Shown here in pieces: positions 6,227 through 20,174 of a DNA stretch of 64,000 bases; the stretch's first letter is position 1, and every line of letters begins with the position of its first letter. This DNA is from Desulfuromonadales bacterium (GTDB lineage: Bacteria; Desulfobacterota; Desulfuromonadia; Desulfuromonadales; Geopsychrobacteraceae): positions 1 to 64,000 of the forward strand of contig JAHYIY010000011.1 of the NCBI GenBank assembly GCA_019429255.1, written 5' to 3'. The translations under genes and the position numbers were made by a program. The notes under the pieces were generated by a model. That model did no database searches and was not told where the DNA came from. It saw only the letters and a list, made by a program, of their open reading frames with translations.

Positions 6227-6503
6227 AAATGTGTCTCCTCTTGCAGTAAACATATGATAATTTTCAAATTGCTGTTTTTTATAGCACACACTGCAGTAAA
6301 CTGCGTAATGTTTCAGCAACATCACAGCTGCAACGATGGCGCTGATCCGGCACCTTGCTATTGGTTGCAGGCCGCTATTTCTTTCCAGACATTGTGCACG
6401 CTTTTTGCATCAGATGTTTGCCCTTACCCATTATTCAAGTAACGACAGCTCAGCGCACCATCTACGCGACATGCATCACCCCAGCAAAGGACAGGTTTTT
6501 TTT

Positions 6504-9500
6504 ATGAATCCAGCAGAAAAATTTCGTGACAACTGTGGCTTTGGCTTGCTCGCCCAGATTGACAACCAGCCCAGCCATCAGCTCCTGAAAGATTCCATCA
6601 AAGCGCTAAAACGCATGATGCATCGTGGTGCCATTGCTGCTGATGGCAAGACCGGCGATGGTTCCGGTCTGCTCTGCTCCATGCCCGTCGGCTTTCTCAG
6701 TAAAGCAGCAGAAGAACAGGACATCTCTCTGCCGGAGCAGTTTGCCGTTGCGGTGGTATTTACTCGTGATGCGAAAAAGCAGCTGCCGCTGTTCGAGAAG
6801 TTCTGCAGCAAGAATGACCTGCAGATCCTCTTTACCCGCGAGGTTCCGGTCAACACCGAGGCCCTCGGCGAGTACGCATTAAGCCGGCTGCCACAGATCT
6901 TCCAGATTTTTGTCGTACCGGCGGCACTGATTGCTACCAAGCGCTTTGATGCTCTGCTCTATCTAACGCGCAAGGAGGCAGAAAAACAGTTTGTCGCTGA
7001 TCCGCATTTTTACATCACCAGCTTTTCGCGCACCCTGATCAGCTACAAAGGGCTGGTCATGCCGACCTACATCGAAACCCTGTTCCCCGATCTGCAGGAT
7101 TCCGACTTTGAAATTTCGTTTGCCCTCTTTCACCAGCGCTTTTCCACCAACACCCTGCCCCAGTGGAAGCTCGCTCAACCCTTACGCGTGATTGCCCACA
7201 ACGGCGAGATCAATTCGATCCAGGGCAACCGCTTCAAGGCCCGCTACAAGTTCAGTGATGCGCGCAGTCCGGTTTTTACTGAGGATGAGATGGCACGGAT
7301 CATGCCATTGCTCGAAGAAGGGGTCAGTGACAGCGCCAGCCTCGATAACATGATTGAGTTTAAACTGGCCAACGGCGTCGATTTTTTCAAGGCCATCCGC
7401 GGCCTGGTGCCGCCGGCACGTCACAATGTCGCCAACATGCCGGCCAAACTGCGCGCTTTTTATGAGTACACCTCCGGCGCCTATGAGCCCTGGGACGGCC
7501 CGGCCGCCATCAGCCTGACCGATGGCCGTTACATCGGCTGTATCCTCGATCGCAACGGTCTGCGCCCGGCAAAATACATCATCACCGTTGATAATCGCCT
7601 GCTGATCAGTAGCGAGTACGGTGTCATCGACACGCCGGCCGAGATGATCCGCGAGCGTGGCCGGCTGCAAAGTGGCCAGATGATTGCCGCCGACCTGAAC
7701 TCCGGGCAGATCTTCTACACCCGCGATATCGACCGCTATCTGATGGAGTCCCAGCCTTACAATCAGTGGCTGACCGAACACACCTACTACCTGCAGGAAT
7801 TTATCGGTCGCCAGTTCTGCGACGACAAGGACTACCGCTACCCCGATCTTGAGACCGTTCAGCGGTATCACCATATCACCGCGGAGGTCGTTGATCTGGT
7901 CATCCGGCCGATGATGACTGACGGCAAGGAACCGGTCGGCTCCATGGGGGACGACACGCCGCTGGCGGCTTTTTCCGATCAACAGCGTAACTTCAGCGAT
8001 TTTTTCAAGCAGAAATTCGCCCAGGTCACCAATCCGCCCATCGACCCCTTGCGTGAAAAAGCGGTGATGTCGACCACCATCGGCTTCGGCGGCATCGGCA
8101 ACCCGCTGATCGAAACCAAAAGCCGCGCCATGCGCTTGAAAAGCGTATCACCCTTTCTTTCCTACGAGATCTATCATTCCCTGCTGACCTTTGGTGACCC
8201 GCAACTGCCGCGTTTCGAAGCCTGCTACAAGTACCGGATTTTCCATACCGACTTCCGCACTGATCTGCAAAAAGCCCTGCAGCACCTGGCCGAGCAGGTA
8301 CTGGATGCGGTGAGCAACGACGGTGTCCGCATCGTTATTCTTGACGACCGGGTCCTTGGCAAGGATAACAAGCTGATTCCGATGGCCATGGCCGTTGGCT
8401 ATATCAACCGTCAGCTGCTCAAAACCCGGTTGCGTCAGCATGTCAGTCTGGTGGTGGTGACCGGTGAAGTGGTCGACCCCCATGCCGCGGCCGTGCTGAT
8501 CGGCTACGGTGCTATTGCCATCTACCCCTGGCTGCTGTATGCCAGCGCCCTCGAAATCGGAGAAAAACGCAACCAACCGCCTCGGGAACTGCGTAAAGCA
8601 TTGCAGAACATCTACCAGGCCCTGAACCAGGGGATTCTTAAAATCATGTCAAAAATGGGGATCAGCACCGTTTCGAGCTACCGTAACGCCGCCCTGTTTG
8701 ACATTATCGGTCTGGCTACCGAGGTTGTTGATGCCTGCTTCAAGGGCTCGCCCCTGCTGATGCCGGGCCTGGGCTTCCAGGAGATCGAGGAACGCATTGA
8801 CAAGGTGCATCGCAAGGTCTTCGCCGAAACCTACATGACTCCCATCTACCCCCTTGAGATCGGCGGCTACTATCGCGACAACCCGGGGTTTGAATATCAC
8901 GATTTCAACTCCTGGCACGTAACCCAGCTGCATCGCTTTGCTGAACATCGTACTCGCGAAGAATATTTGAAATTCCGCTCGATGATCGACCACCGTGGCA
9001 TCAGATATGTGCGCGATGCCCTCGGCTTCAAAAGCCCTCACTCGCCCCTGCCGATTGAGCAGGTGGAACCGATTGCCGCCATCACCCGTCGTTTTGACTC
9101 CGCCGCCATGTCCTTAGGTGCCCTGTCGCCGGAGGCCCACGAGGCCCTGGCTGAAGCGATGAATCGTATGGGTGGTCATTCCAACAGCGGCGAAGGTGGG
9201 GAAGACGCTGCGCGCTTCAAAACCATCCGCAACAGCCGTATCAAGCAGATCGCTTCAGGACGTTTCGGCGTCACCCCCGGCTATCTGCGCAGCGCCGAAG
9301 AGATCCAGATCAAACTCGCCCAGGGCGCCAAGCCTGGAGAGGGAGGTCAGTTGCCCGGCGAAAAGGTCAGCCCCCTGATTGCACGCCTGCGCTTCACCGT
9401 TCCCGGAGTGACCCTGATTTCTCCGCCGCCGCACCACGATATTTACTCCATTGAGGATCTGGCGCAGCTGATTTTTGACCTCAAACAGGTCAACCCCCAG

Positions 9501-10925
9501 GCAAAAATCAGCGTCAAACTGGTCTCTACCGAAGGGGTCGGCACCATTGCCGCCGGCGTAGCCAAAGCCTATGCCGACAAGATTGTCATTTCCGGCCACG
9601 ATGGCGGTACCGGTGCCGCGCCACTAAGTTCCATCAAACATGCCGGCAACCCCTGGGAGTTCGGCCTGAGTGAGGCTCACATCAGCCTGAAAGCCAACAA
9701 TCTGCGCGAGGCTGTCTCCCTGCAGACCGACGGTGGCATGAAAATCGGCCGCGATGTCGTCAAAGCCGCCATGCTCGGCGCCGAAAGTTTCGGCTTCGGC
9801 ACGCCGTTGCTGGTTCTGCTCGGCTGCAAGCTGCTGCGCGTCTGTCACCTCAATCGCTGTACCGTCGGCATCGCTACTCAGGATGAGAACCTGCGTGCCC
9901 ACTATATCGGCACCGTCGAGAAGGTCATCAGTTACCTGGAAAACGTCGCTGAAGACGTGCGCGAGATCCTGGCAGTGCTGGGTTTCCGCTCCCTCGAAGA
10001 GATCATTGGCCGCAGTGATCTGCTGGAAAAACTCGATACGCCGTTATTGAGTCAGTTCGATCTTTCAGACGTTTTGCGTCAGGTCGACGGAGTCAATGTG
10101 CGTACCCGCGACAACCATCCCTTTGATGACAACGCCTTTGAAAAGGAGTTGCTCAAGGAGATTTATCCGGTCATCAAAAATCCGCAGGCCGAGGTGGTGG
10201 CCGAACGCGAAATCAGCAACGTCAACCGCAGCTTCGGCACCCTGATCAGTGGCGAGATTGCGCGTTTTTACGGCGATTCCGGGCTACCCAAAGAAGCGTT
10301 GACGATCAGATTGAAGGGCGTTGCCGGACAGTCCCTCGGTGCCTTCCTTGCTGAAGGGATATCGCTTTTTCTTCACGGTGTCGGCAATGACTACGTCGGC
10401 AAAGGGATGCATGGTGGTCGCATTATCATTACCCCTCAGGTTTATCAGCCGGGCGCATCGGCGGTAGGCAACACCTGCCTTTACGGGGCCACCGGCGGCA
10501 AGCTCTTTGTTGCCGGCACCGCCGGCGAACGCTTTGCCGTGCGTAATTCCGGCGCACTGGCGGTGGTTGAGGGGACGGGCGACCATGCCTGCGAATATAT
10601 GACCGGCGGTACCGTTGTCGTGCTGGGAGAAACCGGCATCAATTTCGGTGCCGGCATGACCGGCGGCGCCGCTTTTGTCTACGACCGCAGCAAGAATTTC
10701 ATTGATCGCCTTAATCAGCAGCTGGTGGTCGCGCGGCGCATCGATGTTGATGAAGACAATGAAGGGAGACTCTACTTAAAGAGTATCCTCATCAGTTATT
10801 TCAACCGCACGGCAAGCCCGGTTGCCAAGGCGATACTCGATAATTTCCGCGAGGAGCTGGCCTATTTCTGGATGGTCACCCCCAAGGACATGAAGGCGCC
10901 GCTTAATCCGAAAGAAGGGGATTGA
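6504..10925 (+). CDS. gltB: Glutamate synthase large subunit
   Basis: Large subunit of GOGAT, 1473 residues. It splits glutamine in an N-terminal class II amidotransferase domain, channels ammonia, and aminates 2-oxoglutarate in the FMN/[3Fe-4S] synthase domain. The nucleophile Cys11 is in DNCGFGLLAQ, so a 10-residue propeptide must be removed. Other landmarks are HQRFSTNTLPQW, the FMN-domain segment SGHDGGTGAAPLSSIKHAG, the cysteine cluster GCKLLRVCHLNRCTVGIAT, and the C-terminal beta-helix GGRIII/GNTCLYGATGG. The start was chosen at the ATG after AAAGGACA because it places the Cys correctly; an in-frame upstream ATG at 6336 would add a 56-residue tail and is rejected. gltD follows after 3 bp. 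Confidence 0.97.
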   Translation: MNPAEKFRDNCGFGLLAQIDNQPSHQLLKDSIKALKRMMHRGAIAADGKTGDGSGLLCSMPVGFLSKAAEEQDISLPEQFAVAVVFTRDAKKQLPLFEKFCSKNDLQILFTREVPVNTEALGEYALSRLPQIFQIFVVPAALIATKRFDALLYLTRKEAEKQFVADPHFYITSFSRTLISYKGLVMPTYIETLFPDLQDSDFEISFALFHQRFSTNTLPQWKLAQPLRVIAHNGEINSIQGNRFKARYKFSDARSPVFTEDEMARIMPLLEEGVSDSASLDNMIEFKLANGVDFFKAIRGLVPPARHNVANMPAKLRAFYEYTSGAYEPWDGPAAISLTDGRYIGCILDRNGLRPAKYIITVDNRLLISSEYGVIDTPAEMIRERGRLQSGQMIAADLNSGQIFYTRDIDRYLMESQPYNQWLTEHTYYLQEFIGRQFCDDKDYRYPDLETVQRYHHITAEVVDLVIRPMMTDGKEPVGSMGDDTPLAAFSDQQRNFSDFFKQKFAQVTNPPIDPLREKAVMSTTIGFGGIGNPLIETKSRAMRLKSVSPFLSYEIYHSLLTFGDPQLPRFEACYKYRIFHTDFRTDLQKALQHLAEQVLDAVSNDGVRIVILDDRVLGKDNKLIPMAMAVGYINRQLLKTRLRQHVSLVVVTGEVVDPHAAAVLIGYGAIAIYPWLLYASALEIGEKRNQPPRELRKALQNIYQALNQGILKIMSKMGISTVSSYRNAALFDIIGLATEVVDACFKGSPLLMPGLGFQEIEERIDKVHRKVFAETYMTPIYPLEIGGYYRDNPGFEYHDFNSWHVTQLHRFAEHRTREEYLKFRSMIDHRGIRYVRDALGFKSPHSPLPIEQVEPIAAITRRFDSAAMSLGALSPEAHEALAEAMNRMGGHSNSGEGGEDAARFKTIRNSRIKQIASGRFGVTPGYLRSAEEIQIKLAQGAKPGEGGQLPGEKVSPLIARLRFTVPGVTLISPPPHHDIYSIEDLAQLIFDLKQVNPQAKISVKLVSTEGVGTIAAGVAKAYADKIVISGHDGGTGAAPLSSIKHAGNPWEFGLSEAHISLKANNLREAVSLQTDGGMKIGRDVVKAAMLGAESFGFGTPLLVLLGCKLLRVCHLNRCTVGIATQDENLRAHYIGTVEKVISYLENVAEDVREILAVLGFRSLEEIIGRSDLLEKLDTPLLSQFDLSDVLRQVDGVNVRTRDNHPFDDNAFEKELLKEIYPVIKNPQAEVVAEREISNVNRSFGTLISGEIARFYGDSGLPKEALTIRLKGVAGQSLGAFLAEGISLFLHGVGNDYVGKGMHGGRIIITPQVYQPGASAVGNTCLYGATGGKLFVAGTAGERFAVRNSGALAVVEGTGDHACEYMTGGTVVVLGETGINFGAGMTGGAAFVYDRSKNFIDRLNQQLVVARRIDVDEDNEGRLYLKSILISYFNRTASPVAKAILDNFREELAYFWMVTPKDMKAPLNPKEGD

Positions 10926-10928
10926 TCT

Positions 10929-12314
10929 ATGCAAAGTTTTATTGAAACCGGCCGCCAGGAGCCGGATAAATTCGAAGCTACCCAGCGGCTGCAGAATTTT
11001 GATGAAATCTACCGCTTTTTCACCAGTCGCATGGTGCGCAAGCAGTCGGAGCGCTGTGTTCAGTGTGGTGACCCTTTTTGTGCAACCATCGGCTGCCCGT
11101 TGCAGAATTACATTCCCCAATGGCTCGAAGCCATCGCCGACCGCGACCTCGAACGCGCTTTTCGCCTCTCCAATGAGAGTTCCCCGTTTCCCGAAATTCT
11201 CGGGCGCATCTGTCCTCAGGGGCATCTGTGTGAGGGCGCCTGCACCCTGGATGACGGCTACGGTGCCATCACTATCGGTGCCATTGAAGCCACCATCACC
11301 GACCTGGCTTTTGCCGCCGGCATGAAGCTTCCCTTTCCCGGTCTGCGCCACAAAACCCATGTTGCAATTGTCGGCTCCGGCCCGGCCGGCATGTCCTGCG
11401 CCCATTTTCTGCTGCGTGCCGGCATCCGTGTCTCCATGTACGAGCAGGCCGAACATCCCGGCGGCCTGCTGACCTACGGTATTCCCGGCTTCAAACTCAA
11501 TAAAAAAATTGTCTCCCAGCGCTTTGATCTGCTGCAACAGGCCGGACTGCAACTGCATCTGGGACAACGAATCGGCGAACAAATCTCTTACCCGCAACTG
11601 ATCGACAATCATGACGCGGTATTCGTCGGCATCGGTGCCACCCAGGGGCGCAGAGCCGGTATTACCGGCGAAGATCTGTCGGACGTCATGCTGGCCATGG
11701 ACTATCTAACTGAAAAACAAAAGCAATTGTTCGGAAAAGTTGCCGATCCGCGTTTTATTATGCAAGGCAAACGGGTAGCGGTGATTGGCGGTGGCGATAC
11801 CGCCATGGATTGTCTGCGCACCGCCCTGCGCGACGGCGCCGAAGAGGTCACCTGCCTCTATCGCCGTGACGAAGCCAACATGCCGGGCAGCCACAAGGAA
11901 TTTCATAATGCGGTTGAGGAAGGGGCCATTTTTGATTTCAACGTCAGCCCACGGGAAATTCGCCGCGAAAAAAATGGTCAGTTCTGTATTGAGGTCGAAC
12001 AGACCCGGTTGACGGAAAAGGATACCGACGGCCGTCAGCGCGTCGAAATTATTCCCGACACCGCCCACACCGTCTCGGCGGATGTGGTCATCCTTGCCCT
12101 CGGGTTCGATGTCTCCCCGGTGGCAGAACTGGTGGAGCTGGGAGTTAAGTGTAATCGCTGGGACCAGATGGAGATTGATCCGGCCAGTGGGTTGACCGGC
12201 CACCCCAAGGTCTATGCCGGCGGTGATTGCTTTCGTGGTGCCGACCTGGTGGTCACCGCGGCCGCCGATGGGCGTCGTGCGGCCCTGGCAATGATGCGCC
12301 GTTTTCTCGGCTGA
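10929..12314 (+). CDS. gltD: Glutamate synthase small subunit
   Basis: FAD/NADPH-binding beta subunit of GOGAT, 461 residues, delivering electrons from NADPH to GltB. The N-terminal Fe-S motif is CVQCGDPFCATIGCP with a second cluster CPQGHLCEGAC; the FAD fold is VGSGPAGMSCAHFLLRAG and the NADPH fold VIGGGDTAMDCLRTA. The C-terminal GGDCFRGADLVVTAAADGR is the FAD-binding end. It is the direct operon partner of gltB. No clear terminator follows. Confidence 0.96.
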   Translation: MQSFIETGRQEPDKFEATQRLQNFDEIYRFFTSRMVRKQSERCVQCGDPFCATIGCPLQNYIPQWLEAIADRDLERAFRLSNESSPFPEILGRICPQGHLCEGACTLDDGYGAITIGAIEATITDLAFAAGMKLPFPGLRHKTHVAIVGSGPAGMSCAHFLLRAGIRVSMYEQAEHPGGLLTYGIPGFKLNKKIVSQRFDLLQQAGLQLHLGQRIGEQISYPQLIDNHDAVFVGIGATQGRRAGITGEDLSDVMLAMDYLTEKQKQLFGKVADPRFIMQGKRVAVIGGGDTAMDCLRTALRDGAEEVTCLYRRDEANMPGSHKEFHNAVEEGAIFDFNVSPREIRREKNGQFCIEVEQTRLTEKDTDGRQRVEIIPDTAHTVSADVVILALGFDVSPVAELVELGVKCNRWDQMEIDPASGLTGHPKVYAGGDCFRGADLVVTAAADGRRAALAMMRRFLG

Positions 12315-12365
12315 GAGCTGGATTCCGGCATCTGACTGCTATATGCTTTCAGACAACAGTAACCA

Positions 12366-12468
12366 GCCACCAAGACTCTAAGGACACCAAGAGAGGCAAC
12401 GGCTGCTTTTGAGTTAAAACAATAAACCGATTTTTTGGTTTTCTTGGAGATCTTGGTGCCTTGGTGGC
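12366..12468. repeat. Inverted pair of CCACCAAGxCACCAAG-type repeats
   Basis: GCCACCAAGACTC...ACACCAAGA (12366-12393) faces TCTTGG...TTGGTGCCTTGGTGGC (12442-12468). The arms can pair over about 20 bp with mismatches around a loop of roughly 50 bases. It lies between gltD and the antiporter operon. No promoter was recognised here. Confidence 0.65.
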
Positions 12469-12506
12469 CTGCATATGATTGGTGCCATTATTTTATAGGT
12501 ATTCCG

Positions 12507-13004
12507 ATGTCTGTAGTAACATTTCGTTGGTCTCGTTTTATCCTGCGCCTTGGCGGTTGTCTGTTCCTCTGGTGGGTGCTGACTGGTGGGCGGGCGTCCT
12601 CCTGGATCATCGGAGTGCCGACCATCGCGCTGGCCCTGTGGGTCATGGAAGCAGCACCACAAACACACCCCTGGCGCATATCTTTTGCCGGGCTGCTTCG
12701 ATTTATCCCTTATTTTCTATTGCAGTCGCTGCGCGGCGGCATCGATGTCGCTCGCCGCGCCTACTCCCCCAGACTCCCCCTGGATCCGCAGATCATCGAT
12801 TTTCCGCTGAACCTTCCTCCCGGACCGGCGCAGGTTTTCTTTCTCAACAGCGTCAGCCTGCTCCCCGGCACCCTGTCTGCCGATCTCAACGGTACGACCC
12901 TCAAGGTACACCTGCTTGATCACAAGATCGATCCGCAACTCGATCAACTCGAAACCCGGGTTGCCGCTCTGTTCAAATGTTCGCTGCGGGGCGGCGATGA
13001 TTGA
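12507..13004 (+). CDS. mrpE: Mrp/Mnh antiporter subunit E
   Basis: Membrane protein of 165 residues, first gene of the antiporter operon. Two N-terminal hydrophobic segments (LGGCLFLWWVLTGG, IIGVPTIALALWVM), a third (FAGLLRFIPYFLLQSL), and a soluble tail containing NSVSLLPGTLSADLNG and LKVHLLDHK, the signature of MnhE/MbhA-like subunits. It has no proton channel of its own; the family helps assembly or stability of the complex. Start ATG at 12507 with only a weak TAGGT ribosome site. It overlaps mrpF by 8 bp. Confidence 0.88.
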   Translation: MSVVTFRWSRFILRLGGCLFLWWVLTGGRASSWIIGVPTIALALWVMEAAPQTHPWRISFAGLLRFIPYFLLQSLRGGIDVARRAYSPRLPLDPQIIDFPLNLPPGPAQVFFLNSVSLLPGTLSADLNGTTLKVHLLDHKIDPQLDQLETRVAALFKCSLRGGDD

Positions 13005-13266
13005 ACTCTATATCAGTCTGGCCCTGATCCTGCTGCTGACCATCGCCATCGGCCTGGTACGGGTTTTACGCGGGCCGACCGCTACCGACCGGATGCTGGC
13101 TGCTCAACTTTTTGGTACCACGGCGGTGGCAATCCTGCTGTTACTCGGACAGGCCGGCGGCAACACTGCCATCTGGGATGTTGCCCTGATCTTCGCCCTG
13201 CTGGCCGCCGTTGCCGCAGTGACCTTTGTGCGGCGTAAAGATATCGATACGACAACGGAAACCTGA
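12997..13266 (+). CDS. mrpF: Mrp/Mnh antiporter subunit F
   Basis: Small three-helix membrane protein, 89 residues, with RVLRGPTATDRMLAAQLFGT, the conserved loop of MrpF/MbhB. The ATG lies inside the end of mrpE, indicating translational coupling. In Mrp and Mbh structures this subunit lies with E and G in the part thought to carry sodium translocation. Confidence 0.9.
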   Translation: MIELYISLALILLLTIAIGLVRVLRGPTATDRMLAAQLFGTTAVAILLLLGQAGGNTAIWDVALIFALLAAVAAVTFVRRKDIDTTTET

Positions 13267-13323
13267 CTATTTAGAACCATCTCGACCCGCTACCGATTTG
13301 CGACTTAAAAACAAAGGAGCGCG

Positions 13324-13623
13324 ATGTTACTTTCTGATCTGATCACCACATTACTGCTGATCTGCTCCCTGCCTTTTTTTCTTGCCGGCACCCTCGGATT
13401 GCTGCGCTTCCCCGATCTCTATTGCCGTTTGCATGCGTTGACCAAAGCCGACAACCTTGGTCTGGGCCTGGTGGTACTGGCACTGATGATTCAGGCCGAC
13501 AGCTGGCAGGTCGTTATCCGCCTGCTGCTGACCTGGCTGCTGGTGTTGGTTGCCGGCGCAACTGTCGCCCACCTGATCGCGCGCAAGGCGCAGCAGGACG
13601 GGCACCAACCCTGGCGGCGCTGA
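13324..13623 (+). CDS. mrpG: Mrp/Mnh antiporter subunit G
   Basis: Three-helix membrane protein of 99 residues. FFLAGTLGLLRFPDLYCRLHALTKADNLG is split by the hallmark RFPD-x-Y-x-R-x-H-A-x-T-K loop of MrpG/MbhC. A good RBS (AAGGAGCG) precedes the ATG. It is 57 bp downstream of mrpF, the only real gap in the operon. Confidence 0.92.
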   Translation: MLLSDLITTLLLICSLPFFLAGTLGLLRFPDLYCRLHALTKADNLGLGLVVLALMIQADSWQVVIRLLLTWLLVLVAGATVAHLIARKAQQDGHQPWRR

Positions 13624-13625
13624 CC

Positions 13626-14609
13626 ATGGAACCGGCGCTGATCTTTGATCTGGTTCTGCTGCTCATCCTGATCGGCCTGGCCTGGCTGCTGCTGGCCAGC
13701 ACCGATCTGTTCCGCGCTGTGGTGCTGTTTATCGCCTTCGGCCTTCTCCTTGCCCTGGCCTGGGTACGTCTGGGGGCACCCGACGTCGCTCTCGCCGAAG
13801 CGGCCATTGGCGCCGGCATTACCGGTGCCCTGCTGTTGGTTGGCCTGGGACGCCTGGGGTCGACTGAGCGCTGCCGCTTCAGCCGAGCCCCCCTCACTTT
13901 TTTACAGCGTCTGTCGGCACCTGTGCTGGTCGGCGTGATGATCCCCTCAATCTCCCTGATCCTGCTCCTTGAAGTGCATCAACTCGCCGGTACCACCCCT
14001 GGCCGGCAGGGACTGATCAACGCCTTCCTCGACGTCAGCGGTAGCGGCCATGGGGTAACGGCGGTACTGCTGAACTTTCGTGCCTGGGATACCTTGCTGG
14101 AAAAAGGCGTCCTGTTGCTGGCGCTGATCACTATCTGGTCCCTCGATCAGGCACGTCCACTCTTTCACCAGGAAGACATATCACCACAATTGATGGGACT
14201 TGCCCGACTGCTGCTACCGCTGGTGATTGTTGTCGCAGGATTTGTGTTGTGGCAGGGGGATCAGGCTCCCGGTGGCGCGTTCCAGTCCGGAGCTTTGCTC
14301 AGCGCCGGCATTCTGCTGGCGATCCTCGTCGGCTACAGTCTCCCGCAACGCTGGCAGGGTCTGTCGTTGCGCCTGCTGCTGGCGATCGGTTTCGGTGTTT
14401 TTCTTTTAATTGCCGCCGCTACCCTGCTGTACTCCGGCTATCCCCTGCAGTATCCGGAACACCTGGCCGGTAGTTTGATTCTGCTGATTGAGCTGGTCGC
14501 CACTGCCTCCATCGCCGCGCTGCTGGCTGCCGCCGTGGTCGGTGGACATCCTCCTGATGATCTATCAACCCCTGCAGCAAAAGCCCCCTCAACAAGCGGG
14601 AGGCGATGA
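13626..14609 (+). CDS. Fused MrpA C-terminal (DUF4040 + MbhE) and MrpB domains
   Basis: Membrane protein of 327 residues joining three pieces. Residues 1-85 are a DUF4040/MbhD-like block with LGAPDVALAEAAIGAGITGA; residues about 135-180 contain VLLNFRAWDTLLEKGVLLLA, the MbhE-like piece found at the C-terminus of MrpA; residues about 195-305 are MnhB-like with GFVLWQGDQAPGGAFQSG. In Bacillus-type Mrp the first two pieces belong to MrpA and the third is MrpB; in archaeal Mbh they are MbhD, MbhE and MbhF. A single fused chain is unusual. ATG is 3 bp after mrpG and the end overlaps mrpC. Confidence 0.85.
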   Translation: MEPALIFDLVLLLILIGLAWLLLASTDLFRAVVLFIAFGLLLALAWVRLGAPDVALAEAAIGAGITGALLLVGLGRLGSTERCRFSRAPLTFLQRLSAPVLVGVMIPSISLILLLEVHQLAGTTPGRQGLINAFLDVSGSGHGVTAVLLNFRAWDTLLEKGVLLLALITIWSLDQARPLFHQEDISPQLMGLARLLLPLVIVVAGFVLWQGDQAPGGAFQSGALLSAGILLAILVGYSLPQRWQGLSLRLLLAIGFGVFLLIAAATLLYSGYPLQYPEHLAGSLILLIELVATASIAALLAAAVVGGHPPDDLSTPAAKAPSTSGRR

Positions 14610-14926
14610 TGAACACTGTATCGCTCTACGCCGGTAGCGGCATCATTCTGTTCTCCCTCGGCCTGCACGCGCTGCTGATACGTCGCCACCTGTTGCGTAA
14701 AATCCTCGCCGCCAACATCATGGGCAGCGGCGTTTTTATGGTGTTTATTGCCATGGGTGCGCGCGGCGAGAGCGGAGTTGCCGACCCGGTACCCCAGGCC
14801 ATGGTACTGACCGGCATCGTCGTCTCCCTGTGTTTTACTGCCGTAGCTATTGTCCTTGCGGTTCGAATCAATAAACTCACCGGTTGCACCACCCTGGCGG
14901 TCGATGAGGAGTCGTCCATTGACTGA
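14606..14926 (+). CDS. mrpC: Mrp/Mnh antiporter subunit C (NuoK-like)
   Basis: Three-helix NuoK/MrpC-like protein, 106 residues, with KILAANIMGSGVFMVFIA and DPVPQAMVLTGIVVSLCFTA, the conserved D-P-x-P-Q-A-(L/M)-V-L-T-G-I-V motif. ATG overlaps the previous stop (ATGATGA). The C-terminus is acidic. It forms part of the proton path between the B and D subunits in this family. Confidence 0.93.
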   Translation: MMNTVSLYAGSGIILFSLGLHALLIRRHLLRKILAANIMGSGVFMVFIAMGARGESGVADPVPQAMVLTGIVVSLCFTAVAIVLAVRINKLTGCTTLAVDEESSID

Positions 14927-16406
14927 GCTGATTGTCCAGCAGAATTGGTTTGTATGGATGACCCTGCTCCCCCTGGGGGCAGCGGTAGCAACCTTTCTGG
15001 CCCCAGGCCAGGCACGCTGGATCGGCCTGACCACCGCCTTGTTTCTCCCTTTTTGCGCCCTTGCTGCCATCGCCGCTACGGTGTTCAGCACGGCCCAGCC
15101 CTTAACCGTCGGCAACTGGCCGACCCCGCTGGGGATTGAGCTGCGTACTGACGGCCTTGCCCTGGTGATGCTCGCTGTCACCGCCCTGGTCGGCTTTATT
15201 ATCAGCTGCTATGCCCTGGGCTATTTCCCGCCACGGCAGCATCATCTCAGCCGGACTCATTATTTCTGGCCCTTATGGCTGTTTTTGTGGGGCGGATGTA
15301 ACGCCCTCTTTGTTTCCGGCGATCTGTTTAATCTCTATGTCACCCTCGAACTTGTGAGCCTCGCTTCAGTTGCCCTGATCGCGCTGGAAGGGGGGAAAGC
15401 TGCTCTGGCGGCGGCACTGCGCTATCTCTTTATCGGTCTGCTGGGTTCCCTGGCCTATCTGCTCGGTGTTGGCATTCTTTACGCTACCTATGCGACGCTA
15501 GATATCACCCTGCTGGGCGAAATAATCAGTGATAGCCGTCTCAATCATGCCGCCATGTCCCTGATGATTGCCGGACTGGTGCTCAAAAGTGCCCTGTTCC
15601 CTCTGCATTTCTGGCTTCCCCAGGCCCATACCATGGCACCGGCGCCGGTCAGCGCGGTCCTTTCCGCCCTGGTTGTCAAGGCTGCCTACGTGGTTCTGCT
15701 ACGTCTGTGGTTTGAGGTCTTCCCTGCCCTTGATACCCTTGCTATCGGCCATCTACTCGGCCTGCTCGGTTGCGTGGCGATTATCTGGGGATCGCTGATG
15801 GCGCTGCGCCAGGAACGCCTGAAACTGCTGATCGCCTATTCCACGATCGCCCAGATCGGCTACCTGTTCCTGGTCTTCCCCCTTGCCCGTGGAGAAGCCA
15901 TGGCCGGCGCCTGGGTCGGCGGTGTACTGTTAATGATGACCCATGCCTGCGGTAAGGCGGCCATGTTCCTGATGGCCGGGACGATCCACCACACCGCCGG
16001 TTCCGACCGGATTTCGCGTCTCGCTGGTGCCGGCGGCCCCATCGGCGTACAGGTAGTGGTGTTTACCCTCGCGGCGGCCACCATCATCGGTCTGCCTCCG
16101 AGCGGTGGCTTCTTTGCCAAGTGGTTATTCATCAACGCCGCCCTGGCCACCGGTCAGTGGTGGTATATAGCGATTATCCTCAGCGGCACTCTGCTGGCCG
16201 CCGCCTACATCGCCCGGGTCCTGGGATGGGCCTTTCTTGACGTTAAACGCAGCAGCTATCCGGTCATCCCCTGGGTAATGAAGTGGCCGCCGCTGGCTCT
16301 CTCGGTCATTGCCCTGGTGTTCGGCCTGATCGCTTATGCACCGGTGCAGATTGCCTTGATCGGGGCTCCGGTCAGTGTTCCGCTGCTGGTGGAGTTCGGG
16401 CCATGA
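14919..16406 (+). CDS. mrpD: Mrp/Mnh antiporter subunit D (NuoN/M-like)
   Basis: Proton-translocating antiporter-like subunit, 495 residues and about 14 helices. Lysines on the transport path are in LVLKSALFPLHFWLPQAH and SALVVKAAYVVL; the N-terminal glutamate helix is FNLYVTLELVSLASVAL. The likely start is TTG at 14919, behind GAGGAG and overlapping the mrpC stop by 8 bp; no ATG gives the full N-terminus. It overlaps the next gene by 4 bp (ATGA). Confidence 0.92.
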   Translation: MTELIVQQNWFVWMTLLPLGAAVATFLAPGQARWIGLTTALFLPFCALAAIAATVFSTAQPLTVGNWPTPLGIELRTDGLALVMLAVTALVGFIISCYALGYFPPRQHHLSRTHYFWPLWLFLWGGCNALFVSGDLFNLYVTLELVSLASVALIALEGGKAALAAALRYLFIGLLGSLAYLLGVGILYATYATLDITLLGEIISDSRLNHAAMSLMIAGLVLKSALFPLHFWLPQAHTMAPAPVSAVLSALVVKAAYVVLLRLWFEVFPALDTLAIGHLLGLLGCVAIIWGSLMALRQERLKLLIAYSTIAQIGYLFLVFPLARGEAMAGAWVGGVLLMMTHACGKAAMFLMAGTIHHTAGSDRISRLAGAGGPIGVQVVVFTLAAATIIGLPPSGGFFAKWLFINAALATGQWWYIAIILSGTLLAAAYIARVLGWAFLDVKRSSYPVIPWVMKWPPLALSVIALVFGLIAYAPVQIALIGAPVSVPLLVEFGP

Positions 16407-17893
16407 ACGATCTGATTCTGCTCGCTATTCTGTCCAGTTCGCTGCTCCCCGGCCTGATCATTTTTACCCTGCCGGAACAGAGCGTGCGCCTGCGCACCAT
16501 CCTCAACCTTGGCGGGGCAGGGGTTAAGTTGCTGCTTGTCGCTGTGCTTTTCTTGCACGTGGCCCAACGAGAATACGCGGAATTACGCCTGCCACTGCTG
16601 CCGGACATGGAGCTGGTGCTGCGCGCCGATGCTCTCTCCCTGCTCTTTTTGACCCTCTCGGCATTTCTCTGGCTGCTGACCACCATCTATGCCATCGGCT
16701 ACCTCGAAGGCTCGCCCCACCGCAGCCGCTTTTTCGGCTTCTTCAGTCTCTGCGTCAGTGCCACCACCGGCATTGCCCTGTCCGGCGACATGGTCACCTT
16801 CGTCGTTTTTTACGAAATGCTGACCATTTCCACTTACCCCCTGGTGGTTCATCGCGGTACACCGGCTGCTCTGCACGCCGGACGTATCTATCTGGCCTAC
16901 ACCCTGGGCGGCGGCGTGGTGCTGTTTTTTGCTACGGTCTGGTTACGTGCCATTGCCGGCCCCCTCGATTTCCGTCCAGGGGGTGTTGTTTCAGCCCTCG
17001 ACCCGACACTGTACGGCAGCCTCACCATCATTTTTGCCCTGCTGATTTTATCCCTGGGGGTCAAAGCAGCACTGGTTCCGCTGCATATCTGGCTCCCTAA
17101 CGCCATGATCGCCCCGGCACCGGTCAGTGCCCTGCTGCACGCAGTCGCCGTCGTCAAAGCCGGAGCTTTCGGGATTATCCGGGTCATTCATGATATTTAC
17201 GGTATCAACTTCAGCGTCGAACTGAACCTGCTCTTCCCCCTGGCGCTGCTGGCGGCATTTACCGTTATCTATGGTTCCATCCGCGCCTTGAGTCAAAACG
17301 ACTTGAAGCGCCGTTTGGCATTTTCCACCGTCAGTCAGGTGTCCTACATCCTCCTCGGAGTGACGATGGCAACCCCTCTGGCCACTATTGGTGGGTTGGT
17401 GCATCTGGTGCATCAGGGAGTGATGAAAATCACCCTGTTTTTCTGCGCCGGCAACCTGGCCGAAACCCTCGGCATCCATAAAATTGATGAAATGGACGGC
17501 GTCGGTCGCCGCATGCCCTGGACCATGGCGGCCTTTACCATCGGCGCCCTGGGGATGATCGGTCTGCCGCCCCTGGCCGGCTTTATCAGTAAATGGTATC
17601 TGGGGCTTGGTGGTCTGGCGGCCGATCAACCCTGGATCGTTCTCGTCCTGATCGGCAGTACTCTGCTCAATAGCTGTTACTTTCTACCGGTACTGCATCG
17701 TATCTGGTTTGTTCAACCACGCCAGAATTGGCCCCCCTCGGCCCTGCGCTGCGGCCGTGAAACCACCTGGGCATTGCTGGCACCGCCGTTGATCACCGCC
17801 TTCCTGGTTGTTGCGCTAGGCCTCCTCGCCCACAGCTTCGGCAGCCCGCTGTACTGGGTTGAATTGATTGCCGCGCGCGAGTACGGCCTATGA
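16403..17893 (+). CDS. Second antiporter-like subunit D paralogue
   Basis: Proton-translocating membrane protein of 496 residues, a second member of the NuoL/M/N superfamily in the same operon. GVKAALVPLHIWLPNAMIAPAPVSALLHAVAVVKAG (split here by residue position about 215-250) carries the two key lysines, and VVFYEMLTISTYPLVVH the helix-5 glutamate. It overlaps both neighbours by 4 bp. Extra D-type subunits would add proton channels to the complex; alternatively it replaces the missing N-terminal half of MrpA. Confidence 0.88.
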   Translation: MNDLILLAILSSSLLPGLIIFTLPEQSVRLRTILNLGGAGVKLLLVAVLFLHVAQREYAELRLPLLPDMELVLRADALSLLFLTLSAFLWLLTTIYAIGYLEGSPHRSRFFGFFSLCVSATTGIALSGDMVTFVVFYEMLTISTYPLVVHRGTPAALHAGRIYLAYTLGGGVVLFFATVWLRAIAGPLDFRPGGVVSALDPTLYGSLTIIFALLILSLGVKAALVPLHIWLPNAMIAPAPVSALLHAVAVVKAGAFGIIRVIHDIYGINFSVELNLLFPLALLAAFTVIYGSIRALSQNDLKRRLAFSTVSQVSYILLGVTMATPLATIGGLVHLVHQGVMKITLFFCAGNLAETLGIHKIDEMDGVGRRMPWTMAAFTIGALGMIGLPPLAGFISKWYLGLGGLAADQPWIVLVLIGSTLLNSCYFLPVLHRIWFVQPRQNWPPSALRCGRETTWALLAPPLITAFLVVALGLLAHSFGSPLYWVELIAAREYGL

Positions 17894-19599
17894 GTGCGCC
17901 TGTTACCATTGTCATTCTGCTGACGGTGCCGCTGCTGCCCCTGCTGCTGGTCAGTGCCCTGGCCTGTTCAGCGTTACGCCGCATCGCCTTTCTCGGTGCA
18001 CCTCTGGCTGCTACCCCCGGACTGGTGCTGGCATTATTACCGGGAGCAGGAGCGCCGGTTGCTATCCCCTGGCTGCTCATCGGCACCCAGCTGGGGGTCG
18101 ATGATATCGGGCGCATTTTCCTGTTGTTGACTGCCCTGTTATGGCTGGCAGCGGGTTTCTATGCTGCCGGCTCGACAAAAAACTCTCCGCAGCGGTTACG
18201 CTACTGGATCTTTTTCCTGTTGTGTATGAGTGGCAACCTGGGGCTAACCCTGGCCCTGGACATGATCAGTTTTTACCTCTTTTTCACCCTGATGAGCTTT
18301 GCCGCCTATGGCCTGATTATCCACGACGGCACCGCCTTTGCCCTGCGTGCCGGCAGAATCTATCTATGGCTGGTTATTATCGGTGAAGTGCTGTTGTTTG
18401 CCGCCTTGCTGCTGGCGGCACGGGTTGCTGATTCCCTGCTGCTGAGTGATGTCGCCGCTGTCCTCGCCCATACTGACGCTATGCCCCTGATTCTCGGGTT
18501 ATTGCTCGTCGCCCTGGGGATCAAAATGGGAGTCGTTCCCCTGCATTTCTGGTTGCCCCTGGCCCATCCGGCGGCACCGATTCCGGCCAGCGCCGTACTC
18601 AGTGGAGGGATGATCAAGGCCGGCCTGCTCGGCCTGCTGCGCCTCTTCCCCTTAGGCTCTGTGACCCTGCCTGGCTGGTCGGCCACGCTGGTGGGTCTGG
18701 GATTACTGATGGTTTTTTTCGGGGTGGTGATGGGGCTATTGCAAAACCAGCCGAAAACCCTGTTGGCCTACTCGAGTATCAGCCAGATCGGCTTTCCTCT
18801 GTTTGCCGTTGGCATCGGCCTGGCGGCGCCCCACCAGTGGCCAGTGCTGGCACCGGCGGTGGGTTTCTACGCCCTGCATCATGGCCTGTCCAAAGGCGCT
18901 CTGTTCCTTGGCGTTGGCATGATCGGTCAGCTCAATGGACCCACCCGACTGCGCTATGTCACCCGCGCCGGGCTGTTGCTTCCCGCCCTGGCGTTGGCTG
19001 GTGCCCCTTTGACCAGCGGCGCTCTGGCCAAAGCCAACCTCAAACCGTTTCTGGCGCAAGCGCCTCTACTTGGTGAATCCCTGCTGATCCTCCTGCTGGG
19101 GCTGGCGGCGGTCGCTACCACCCTGTTGATGGGGCGGCTGCTGTTTTTGTTATGGCAGCAAGCGGCGAATTCCACGCAGGTTGGCACAAAAGGGATGTGG
19201 AGCGGTTGGTGCCTGCTGCTTGTGGCGGTTATCCTGGTGGGAATTTATCCGCAGTTGCTGACGGGATCAGCACCTGCAATAAGCGCTAAATGGTTTGATG
19301 GCCTGTGGCCGGTTGCCGGCGGCTCTGCTATTGTTCTACTGGCCTGGCACCGCCTGCGTAACTGGCCCTGGGAGCTGCCTGCAAGGGATGTGGATGTGCT
19401 GCTTGAGTCATTGCTGCGCCACCTGACTGCCGCTGCTGCCAGAGTCAAACGGCCATCAGCACCAGAGTTACCCCGCTCTGCCCGCTGGCAGAATCTGCCG
19501 CTATTGCTGTTACTGCAGGATGCGGAGCAACAGTTGCGCCTGCTCAGTGTCGCCGGGGTCATGTTCATTCTGCTGTTACTGGTACTGCTGTTGTTATAG
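17890..19599 (+). CDS. Third antiporter-like subunit (complex I subunit 5 / NuoL-like)
   Basis: Membrane protein of 569 residues, last gene of the operon. Core motifs are GIKMGVVPLHFWLPLAHPAA, VLSGGMIKAGLLGLLRL and LLAYSSISQIGFPLFAVG. The helix-5 glutamate seems replaced (FYLFFTLMSFAAYGLIIHD), so its proton path may be altered. Residues after about 480 form an extra tail with a charged helix and a final hydrophobic helix, recalling the lateral helix of NuoL. It overlaps the preceding gene by 4 bp. The TAG stop is directly followed by GAGTGGG tandem repeats. Confidence 0.83.
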   Translation: MSAPVTIVILLTVPLLPLLLVSALACSALRRIAFLGAPLAATPGLVLALLPGAGAPVAIPWLLIGTQLGVDDIGRIFLLLTALLWLAAGFYAAGSTKNSPQRLRYWIFFLLCMSGNLGLTLALDMISFYLFFTLMSFAAYGLIIHDGTAFALRAGRIYLWLVIIGEVLLFAALLLAARVADSLLLSDVAAVLAHTDAMPLILGLLLVALGIKMGVVPLHFWLPLAHPAAPIPASAVLSGGMIKAGLLGLLRLFPLGSVTLPGWSATLVGLGLLMVFFGVVMGLLQNQPKTLLAYSSISQIGFPLFAVGIGLAAPHQWPVLAPAVGFYALHHGLSKGALFLGVGMIGQLNGPTRLRYVTRAGLLLPALALAGAPLTSGALAKANLKPFLAQAPLLGESLLILLLGLAAVATTLLMGRLLFLLWQQAANSTQVGTKGMWSGWCLLLVAVILVGIYPQLLTGSAPAISAKWFDGLWPVAGGSAIVLLAWHRLRNWPWELPARDVDVLLESLLRHLTAAAARVKRPSAPELPRSARWQNLPLLLLLQDAEQQLRLLSVAGVMFILLLLVLLLL

Positions 19600-19746: not shown

Positions 19747-20061
19747 CTACTTGACGTGACAGCGGTTACAACTGGTTTTAGCCTCGAAGGCCGTCTCGCC
19801 ATTGTGACAGAAACCACACAGCTCACCAGCGTAGATTTTTTCCATAGTAATTTCCACTGAACCCTGCTTGTATTTCGGGAACAGGTTGGGGTTATGGCAG
19901 TCACCACACTTGAAACCGGCTTCAGCGTGAATTTTTCCGGAAAACTCGACGGCGCCCAGAGCTCCTTTATCAAAGGTCAAGGAACGGTTGGCGGGAACAG
20001 CAATAGCTGCGGTTGCCGCACAGAGCACAACAATACTGAATAACAGAATGATCTTTTTCAT
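19747..20061 (-). CDS. c7-type triheme cytochrome
   Basis: Periplasmic cytochrome of 104 residues. The signal peptide MKKIILLFSIVVLCAATAAIA is followed by a domain with exactly three heme sites: CGDCH, CGFCH and CNRCH. The order KIHAEAGFKCGDCH ... LCGFCHNGETAF ... SCNRCH matches the triheme c7-type cytochromes that shuttle electrons across the periplasm in Desulfuromonas and Geobacter. The start chosen has an AAGGA ribosome site; the longer MTRIVP start is less likely. Transcribed away from the EAL-HDOD gene. Confidence 0.88.
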   Translation of the reverse strand: MKKIILLFSIVVLCAATAAIAVPANRSLTFDKGALGAVEFSGKIHAEAGFKCGDCHNPNLFPKYKQGSVEITMEKIYAGELCGFCHNGETAFEAKTSCNRCHVK

Positions 20062-20174
20062 CGGCACTATCCTTGTCAAAAAAAGTGAGTGATATGTTAT
20101 ACGAAAAAAGCCTGACTTGCTGTCGCAAGTCTATACAAGCAAAAGATAAAGGTCAACTTCCACATCAGATATTT

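Follow-up and report, generated by a model that had tools for sequence, protein, structure and literature searches.

Organization of the operon

The window analysed here is the whole stretch of 64,000 nucleotides at positions 1 to 64,000 (forward strand) of contig JAHYIY010000011.1 from a Desulfuromonadales bacterium (NCBI GenBank assembly GCA_019429255.1). At positions 12507-19599 (+) it carries eight genes, namely mrpE, mrpF, mrpG, a gene in which MbhD/MbhE and MrpB are fused (hereafter AB), mrpC and three genes for antiporter-like subunits, hereafter called D1, D2 and D3 (Table 1). This triple-D operon is a real, conserved and widespread variant of the group 3 Mrp antiporters, in which D3 has a glutamate on transmembrane helix (TM) 6 and none on helix 5, and in which the conserved aspartate of MrpF is replaced; it probably encodes a cation/proton exchanger that stands alone. 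Published work is cited by PubMed Central (PMC) number.

Pfam and NCBIfam agreed on the families MNHE, MrpF_PhaF, PhaG_MnhG, MbhD and MnhB (both in one reading frame), Oxidored_q2 (MrpC) and three times Proton_antipo_M. All gene calls of an earlier reading made from the letters of the DNA (hereafter the sequence-only reading), which had described an Mrp operon with three D/L-type subunits, thus held, as did its gene order E-F-G-(DE+F)-C-D, which is that of MbhA to MbhH. The same reading had reported neither a full MrpA nor hydrogenase genes; no full mrpA was found within the operon with Pfam or NCBIfam, and a PF00374 search of the genome gave no NiFe-hydrogenase gene on the operon's contig. 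Overlaps of 4 bases (ATGA) join AB to C, D1 to D2 and D2 to D3, and a scan for promoters and terminators gave nothing helpful above chance.

Among solved structures, AB matched 6cfw_D and 6u8y_E best, and D1 matched 6cfw_H (180 bits) followed by 6u8y_H and 7qru_D (150 bits). The closest solved relative of MrpG is B. pseudofirmus MrpG, and that of D3 is B. pseudofirmus MrpD (94 bits, with MbhH at 92). In two related loci (L060, 5646-6643, and L061, 5832-6825) the MbhD-like and the MbhE+MrpB-like parts, fused in the window, are separate open reading frames (ORFs).

Table 1 Genes and selected residues of the triple-D operon, with positions in the window
Feature	Position	Strand	Remarks
mrpE / mbhA-like, 165 aa	12507..13004	+	Pfam MNHE 1.5e-24; ATG at 12507
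mrpF / mbhB-like, 89 aa	12997..13266	+	Pfam MrpF 9e-10; best PDB match 6cfw_B; ATG at 12997
MrpF Gln37	codon 13105-13107	+	In place of the conserved Na+-path Asp (D35 in A. flavithermus, D38 in B. pseudofirmus)
mrpG / mbhC-like, 99 aa	13324..13623	+	Pfam 7.1e-26; ATG at 13324; Ala at the TM3 proline site (P86 in A. flavithermus)
AB: MbhD (DUF4040, MrpA C-terminal) + MbhE + MrpB fusion, 327 aa	13626..14609	+	Pfam MbhD 1.4e-17, MnhB 1.7e-11; ATG at 13626
mrpC / mbhG / NuoK-like, 106 aa	14606..14926	+	Pfam 6.1e-20; best PDB match 6cfw_G; ATG at 14606
D1, MrpD/MbhH-type antiporter-like subunit	14904..16406	+	Start codon uncertain, best 14904; helix-5 glutamate (GluTM5) present
D2, antiporter-like subunit, 496 aa	16403..17893	+	ATG at 16403; GluTM5 present; best PDB match in 6cfw
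D3, terminal NuoL/MrpA-N-type antiporter-like subunit (by predicted fold), 569 aa	17890..19599	+	ATG at 17890; AlphaFold2 model, VIA-align
D3 Thr133	codon 18286-18288	+	
D3 Glu166	codon 18385-18387	+	
D3 Lys212 (LysTM7)	codon 18523-18525	+	

Distribution and conservation

PMC8415708 defines group 3 Mrp as lacking mrpA and having mrpD alone, sometimes in several copies, in an operon with other mrp genes. The operon of the window, with E, F, G, the fusion gene, C, three Proton_antipo_M genes and no full MrpA, belongs to group 3 by this definition; a review (PMC5703873) words the group differently, as one of irregular gene order. The Ca2+/H+ Mrp of Thermomicrobium roseum, considered as a characterised triple-D member, was dropped, the review assigning it to group 1.

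Genome contigs were scanned with an alignment of nine D3 sequences, which yielded at least 587 candidate stretches and at least 531 relatives, of which the best 80 were kept. The scan employed two peptide patterns, one of them covering the helix-5 site, and the loci therefore lean towards Ala or Thr at that site. Gene order was counted in the 63 loci with more than 5.3 kb of upstream DNA, the other 17 of the 80 being too short upstream and left out. The full set of E, F, G, AB, C, D1, D2 and D3 was present in 62 of the 63, the exception (L127) having D1-D2-D3 only, and such recurrence of one gene set makes the operon far beyond chance. The exact label order E-F-G-AB-C-D1-D2-D3 occurred in 40/63 and E stood after D3 in 3; the remaining permutations are attributed mostly to over-long machine-read ORFs.

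The hosts of the kept loci included Pseudomonadota, Thermodesulfobacteriota, Verrucomicrobiota, Gemmatimonadota, Actinomycetota, Thermomicrobia, Myxococcota, Planctomycetota, Campylobacterota and others. Within its own lineage the operon was patchy: of the 59 other genomes that were searched as relatives, 8 had a D3 orthologue (3/3 congeners among these), and at phylum level orthologues were found in 11 of 395 genomes with the window genome counted. The plasmid collection gave one record, from Rubrobacter radiotolerans.

Two of the loci (L111 and L131) have two D3 genes per cluster and possibly four antiporter-like subunits, and in L111 a canonical-looking Mrp lies just downstream of the operon. 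The tag 'CSSed', which we take to denote metagenome-assembled genomes from soda-lake sediment, appeared in 12 of the 80 locus titles, and other titles were marine, or from sludge or freshwater nitrifiers, in a sampling that was uncontrolled.

Residues of the cation arm

The cation route of Mrp has been described as running from MrpF Asp35/38 and the C-terminal glutamate of MrpA to MrpC His37/His40 and the GluTM5 of MrpD, with an exit at Asp792/Glu796 (PMC7419157). In the same account D35 is invariably conserved and the D35L variant inactive, and the change of D35 to Glu or Asn is mild in B. subtilis. Two cation uptake routes, and mutually exclusive models of Na+ entry in Mrp and Mbh, are set out in PMC9568556.

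The MrpF aspartate (D35/D38) was absent from all 62 MrpF sequences of the triple-D loci, where Gln (52), Leu (7), Ile (2) or Met (1) takes its place; it was present in 4/4 PDB references and in the canonical MrpF encoded elsewhere in the genome. Histidine was found at neither the H37 nor the H40 site of MrpC (0/64, a set that includes one MrpC from a neighbouring second operon, L064). The MrpC of the window has Ser41 and Phe44 at the positions of His37 and His40 of A. flavithermus MrpC, and the canonical MrpC of the genome has Tyr and Asn. The TM3 proline of MrpG, which faces the MrpF aspartate, occurred in 1 of 64 sequences and is retained in the canonical MrpG of the genome. Six relatives found without the motif scan gave the same picture for MrpF (Gln in 6/6) and MrpC (His in 0/6).

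Other residues of the route were retained, namely the MrpF D29 equivalent (60 Asp and 2 Glu of 62), the MrpG histidine (64/64) and the carboxylates of the MrpA C-terminus (E706/MbhD E69; D792, E796), for which an APDxALAE-type glutamate was found in 55/63 (8 being unmatched by the pattern) and DTxxE in 63/63; the fusion gene of the window has these as APDVALAE and DTLLE. The changes in MrpC and MrpG are not special, since both histidines are likewise missing from the genome's canonical MrpC, and the MrpG of Dietzia has neither the proline nor the histidine. The change in MrpF, set against the PDB references and the canonical MrpF of the genome, appears from the aligned residues to be the strong one among those of the cation arm.

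These residues bear on the alternative that the complex is Mrp-like and yet no ordinary Na+/H+ antiporter, its entry being rewired for another ion or the cation taking a direct cytoplasmic route to the MrpA-type glutamate that bypasses MrpF. The alternative is consistent with the counts at MrpF, MrpC and MrpG, with the Asp and Pro kept by the canonical MrpF and MrpG, with the reported invariance of D35 and inactivity of D35L (PMC7419157) and with the two uptake routes described in PMC9568556. However, the APDxALAE glutamate, DTxxE, the D29 equivalent, the MrpG histidine and the GluTM5 of D1 are all in place, the changes at MrpC and MrpG recur in the canonical MrpC of the genome and in Dietzia MrpG, a glutamine can still ligate a cation, and Glu or Asn at D35 had a mild effect in B. 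subtilis (PMC7419157). It is the best placed of the alternatives considered, and still a rather unlikely one.

The third antiporter-like subunit

The AlphaFold2 model of D3 (50 sequences) had a pLDDT of 90.8 and a pTM of 0.90, the C-terminal 70 to 80 residues being less certain (block pLDDT 59-80). When D3 was compared with VIA-align, all 50 rows shown were NuoL/ND5/NdhF, MrpA or the MBS subunit 6u8y_X (Z 36.9-40.2). At the C-terminus the model has an extra TM, a short lateral helix that is apparently amphipathic (judged by eye) and a final TM, the TM15-helix-TM16 arrangement of the NuoL type. By its predicted fold, D3 is of the terminal NuoL/MrpA-N-like kind.

D3 departs from NuoL and MrpA-N at helix 5. 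The sequence-only reading had noted that one late subunit seemed to lack the helix-5 glutamate; this is D3, with Thr133, and the glutamate on helix 6 can now be added. GluTM5 was absent from 83/83 D3 sequences (Ala 65, Thr 10, Ser 5, Gly 2, Val 1), the motif reading FFTLMS in D3 vs FYEMLT in D2, and the helix-6 glutamate was present in 83/83. Since one of the scan patterns covered helix 5, the residues were recounted on loci obtained by a whole-protein search, which gave helix-5 Glu in 0/16 and helix-6 Glu in 16/16 (these 16 include the three congeners, and two seem to be the records of L075 and L078 again). D1 had the MrpD-type pair of GluTM5 and LysTM7 characteristic of Mrp (CPA3), with a helix-5 glutamate in all 70 ungapped sequences of 73 and LysTM7 in 72/72 ungapped, and D2 had the helix-5 glutamate in 78 of 79 ungapped sequences, in a set that includes at least one MrpA N-terminus (L090); an acid on helix 6 was seen in none of either. 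LysTM7 and LysTM12 were retained in D1, D2 and D3 almost without exception. In D3, LysTM7, LysTM12 (K381), the TM11 lysine (K335) and the TM11 histidine were invariant (83/83) and LysTM8 was present in 75/83; an equivalent of NuoL Arg175 was absent.

All 15 reference subunits of the genome have the helix-5 glutamate, and two NuoLs among these add an aspartate, in the motif RIGD, in the column of the D3 helix-6 glutamate. This aspartate presumably corresponds to E. coli NuoL Asp178. A double ion pair has been reported in E. coli NuoL, with Lys229-Asp178 at 3.3 Å and Lys229-Glu144 at 4.8 Å (PMC13324432), and Lys229/Asp178 are likewise treated as an ion pair in PMC9271201. By alignment, D3 thus appears to have kept an acidic residue for the helix-6 half of this double pair and to have lost the helix-5 half. 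From the invariant lysines of helices 7, 11 and 12 and the helix-6 glutamate we infer that D3 may be a working channel with a moved counter-charge rather than a dead subunit. The residue pattern is fixed in one clade and therefore counts as one evolutionary event.

D3 could instead be a structural cap with a dead first half-channel, D1 and D2 alone carrying protons at a ratio of 2 H+ per cation. The alanine mutants of GluTM5, MrpA E140A and MrpD E137A, lost antiport in B. pseudofirmus (PMC5703873), and GluTM5 is missing from every D3 seen. The glutamine mutants B. subtilis MrpA E113Q and NuoL E144Q, however, showed little effect in a growth assay (PMC4938563), and as the two sets of mutants disagree the need for GluTM5 is disputed. 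A dead channel would moreover have no need of LysTM7, LysTM12, LysTM8 and the lysine and histidine of TM11, conserved as they are, and the helix-6 glutamate is invariant. This alternative is accordingly judged unlikely, somewhat more so than a change of ion or entry route.

No published account of a shift from TM5 to TM6, or of the MrpF change, in a triple-D Mrp was found in a search that mostly did not extend to subscription papers.

Phylogeny of D1, D2 and D3

Two trees were made, a careful one of 49 sequences and a quick one of 76. In the careful tree D1 formed a clade (100/100) beside bacterial MrpD (90/87), and MbhH and MbsH grouped with NuoN (99/91); trees in which D1 was constrained to group with MbhH, or with MbhH and MbsH, were not rejected by the approximately unbiased test (p-AU 0.097 and 0.192, respectively). 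The description of the operon as archaeal in the sequence-only reading was therefore given up: this operon type is spread across many bacterial phyla and D1 stands apart from MbhH in the best tree, the constrained trees not being excluded.

D2 and D3 were placed on the NuoL/MrpA/NuoM/Hyf side. The D2 clade (100/99) was sister (100/100) to a 496-aa subunit which stands in for NuoL in one of the complex I clusters of the same genome, on contig C24, and with which D2 shares 42% identity over 407 residues. D3 formed a clade (100/100) that joined a 587-aa subunit of the C24 complex I in the quick tree (84, with long branches) and, in the careful tree once that row was omitted, HyfB weakly (83/84). 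A common lineage of D3 and the 587-aa subunit was therefore not adopted, and with a partner that changes between trees at weak support the ancestry of D3 is unsettled.

The C24 complex I, the third of the genome (L021 = C24:31000-50000, 8330-13523 (-)), comprises the D2-like 496-aa subunit, an 82-aa ORF without an NCBIfam match at E 1e-20 and the 587-aa antiporter-like subunit, which has Asn in place of the helix-7 lysine. This cluster resembles 'green' complex I, where two MrpD-like subunits replace NuoL (PMC9040806), and the sister relationship of D2 fits that form: D2-type subunits are common to an antiporter operon and a complex I.

Since D2 is sister to a complex I subunit, the D2-D3 pair might have its function outside the antiporter, for instance within a complex I, where the 'green' form has related subunits. 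The pair is, however, bound to D1 by the ATGA overlaps, and all three travel with E-F-G-AB-C in 62/63 loci; the C24 complex I already owns such a pair, and the link of D3 to its C24 counterpart is weak. A separate role for D2 and D3 is thus improbable.

Comparison with known systems

The nearest described architecture is that of 'Ca. Nitrospira alkalitolerans', likened here by its description: a group 3 Mrp in which mrpD is followed by two NuoM-/NuoL-like genes, judged to encode extra mrpA/mrpD-like subunits (PMC7784846). The architecture is therefore already in print; the residue pattern of D3 and MrpF was not found in print. The stand-alone Mrp of Pyrococcus furiosus, PF1147-53 or mrpEFGBB'CD (PMC8415708), shares with the triple-D operon the order, the absence of MrpA and of a redox module, and the fusion of MbhD with MbhE, but it has one antiporter-like subunit against three, and a separate MrpB' where all three parts are fused in the window.

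The order MbhA-H of the Thermococcales membrane hydrogenase Mbh (6cfw) is alike, and it is in this complex that each of D1, D2, C, F and the fusion finds its best PDB match. In contrast to Mbh, the operon has no hydrogenase genes and two more antiporter-like subunits, its D1 and MbhH fall into separate groups in the best tree, and the MrpF Asp and the MbhG Asp/His are missing. With the NuoN-M-L arm of complex I it shares three antiporter-like subunits, D3 having a NuoL-type fold with a carboxylate at the position of NuoL Asp178, whereas the redox arm is lacking, D3 is without GluTM5 and the Arg175 equivalent, and D2 has LysTM12 where the NuoMs of this genome have Glu. D2 has a close relative in the C24 pair, which resembles the pair of green complex I (PMC9040806), but the pair of the window sits in an antiporter operon.

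Neighbouring genes and the rest of the genome

The genome has 18 Proton_antipo_M matches, 3 in the window, 2 on contig C45, 3 on C14 and 10 in three complex I clusters (C22, C24 and C54, named partly by eye). A complete mrpA elsewhere in the genome had been held by the sequence-only reading to count against it. Such a gene does exist on C45, where a fused 942-aa MrpA, scoring above the NCBIfam cut-off, is followed by C, D, E, F and G; as it lies in a complete canonical operon of its own, it does not render the operon of the window ordinary.

That reading had also proposed, as a second possibility, a module awaiting a redox partner, and had suggested a search of the genome for hydrogenase-like genes. 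The sole NiFe-hydrogenase match (PF00374) was at C7:10481-12031, on a different contig from the operon, so that the hydrogenase module genes which accompany the Mrp module in Mbh are absent here. No group 4 NiFe hydrogenase was seen in the genome, the MbhI-type linker not being among the items searched for. The Hyf-like cluster on C14 (L020 = C14:1-20000, 7781-17037 (+), named partly by eye) has two HyfB-like genes and its own membrane subunits; its large subunit matches NuoD families (NuoD/HyfG-like) and is without any CxxC motif, so that it is apparently no NiFe hydrogenase.

Neighbours were compared in the 80 loci, 64 of which have at least 3 kb downstream, using ORFs of at least 150 aa, whose families were assigned by eye on the basis of the N-terminal residues. 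Within 1.4 kb of the operon, 7/80 loci (L079, L101, L104, L105, L107, L117, L138) had an ORF resembling a P-type cation ATPase, UspA-like ORFs were seen in 5, Kef-like ORFs in 3 (within 1 kb) and cation-exchanger-like ORFs in 3 (within 0.2 kb), besides regulators and general genes. FNR-like and quinone-oxidoreductase-like ORFs occurred in 3/80 loci each, 1.6 to 6.8 kb away, and no redox gene recurred near the operon in this comparison.

The operon could be imagined as docking a redox enzyme encoded elsewhere, as Mbh, Mbs and complex I share the module, a triheme cytochrome gene follows closely on the opposite strand and redox-like ORFs are found near a few loci, but with no recurring redox neighbour, the single NiFe match on C7, a C14 cluster self-sufficient in membrane subunits and very varied bacterial hosts this is highly improbable.

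The cytochrome gene is of the c7 type (window 19747-20079 (-)) and convergent with D3; a similar ORF is found at L055 5162-5476. Directly upstream of the mrp operon are ORFs resembling (by eye) the large and small subunits of glutamate synthase (window 6336-12314 (+)), with a gap of 192 bp from the gltD stop to the mrpE ATG. A gltB-gltD-like pair is also upstream in 3/3 congeners (L054-L056); it is absent from three other loci with upstream DNA (L059, L060, L061), and the link was taken as chance linkage.

Proposed function

From what was observed directly (the genes, their order and conservation, the residues and the predicted fold of D3) we infer the function, and with it the assembly into one complex, the subunit positions, the stoichiometry, the direction and the ion. 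The reading we favour, as the likelier though by no means a secure one, is a single stand-alone group 3 Mrp-type complex for cation/proton exchange at the cytoplasmic membrane, with three proton subunits in series and no redox module; the stand-alone antiporter with extra proton channels of the sequence-only reading is thus still the best reading. In its favour are the complete set of Mrp domains packed into one tight operon with ATGA overlaps, the eight genes kept in 62/63 loci, the conserved GluTM5 of D1 and D2 and lysines of all three D subunits, the NuoL/MrpA-like fold and helix-6 glutamate of D3, the P-type cation ATPase, UspA-like, Kef-like and cation-exchanger-like neighbours, and the P. 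furiosus Mrp, which stands alone with the same order and without MrpA.

In such a complex E, F, G, the DUF4040/MbhE-MrpB fusion and C would form the cation arm, and D1, D2 and D3 in a row would form the proton arm, like NuoN, NuoM and NuoL of complex I. D1, of the MrpD type, would lie beside C and be coupled to the cation site via its helix-5 glutamate, D2 would repeat the antiporter unit and keep GluTM5 for the D1/D2 joint, and D3 would be the terminal NuoL/MrpA-N-type cap with its short lateral helix. The helix-7 lysine of D3 probably pairs with the helix-6 glutamate, the partner having moved at the D2/D3 joint. In the scheme of PMC7419157 one proton is moved per antiporter-like subunit, LysTM12 is coupled to LysTM7/GluTM5 of the next subunit, a pair of subunits yields about 2 H+ per Na+, and complex I-like enzymes can extend the two-subunit unit to three or four. 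On this scheme three subunits in series may give an electrogenic exchange of up to 3 H+ per cation, with cation entry rewired. A ratio of 3:1 would act as a 'lower gear', by which cations could be expelled when their gradient is steeper or the proton-motive force weaker.

Several points weigh against this. No experiment on a triple-D operon was found in the literature, the 3:1 ratio is a prediction by extrapolation, and the membership of D2 and D3 in the same complex is deduced. The cation path differs at the MrpF Asp, the two MrpC His and the MrpG Pro, so that the ion may not be Na+, and Na+/H+ exchange could already be provided by the canonical Mrp on C45. The support from neighbouring genes is thin, with no family in more than 7/80 loci.

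A more specific proposal, put forward tentatively and with less confidence than the stand-alone complex itself, is that these operons represent a broad bacterial Mrp clade with a three-pump arm and no redox module, in which the third pump would run on a helix-6 counter-charge and the MrpF-dependent cation route would be closed. If so, it would be a double natural experiment, on the need for GluTM5 in proton transfer and on which cation route is used, and the system may work at a 3:1 ratio or exchange a different ion. A natural family in which GluTM5 is replaced by a helix-6 glutamate and the MrpF site is gone would make both disputes testable on natural proteins. A three-pump Mrp would also be an informative form between the two-pump Mrp and complex I, with which it could be tested whether the number of pumps sets the H+/cation ratio. 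Because its relatives show the same displacement or loss of key charged residues, the operon may thus offer a natural test of how ions move in Mrp and complex I.

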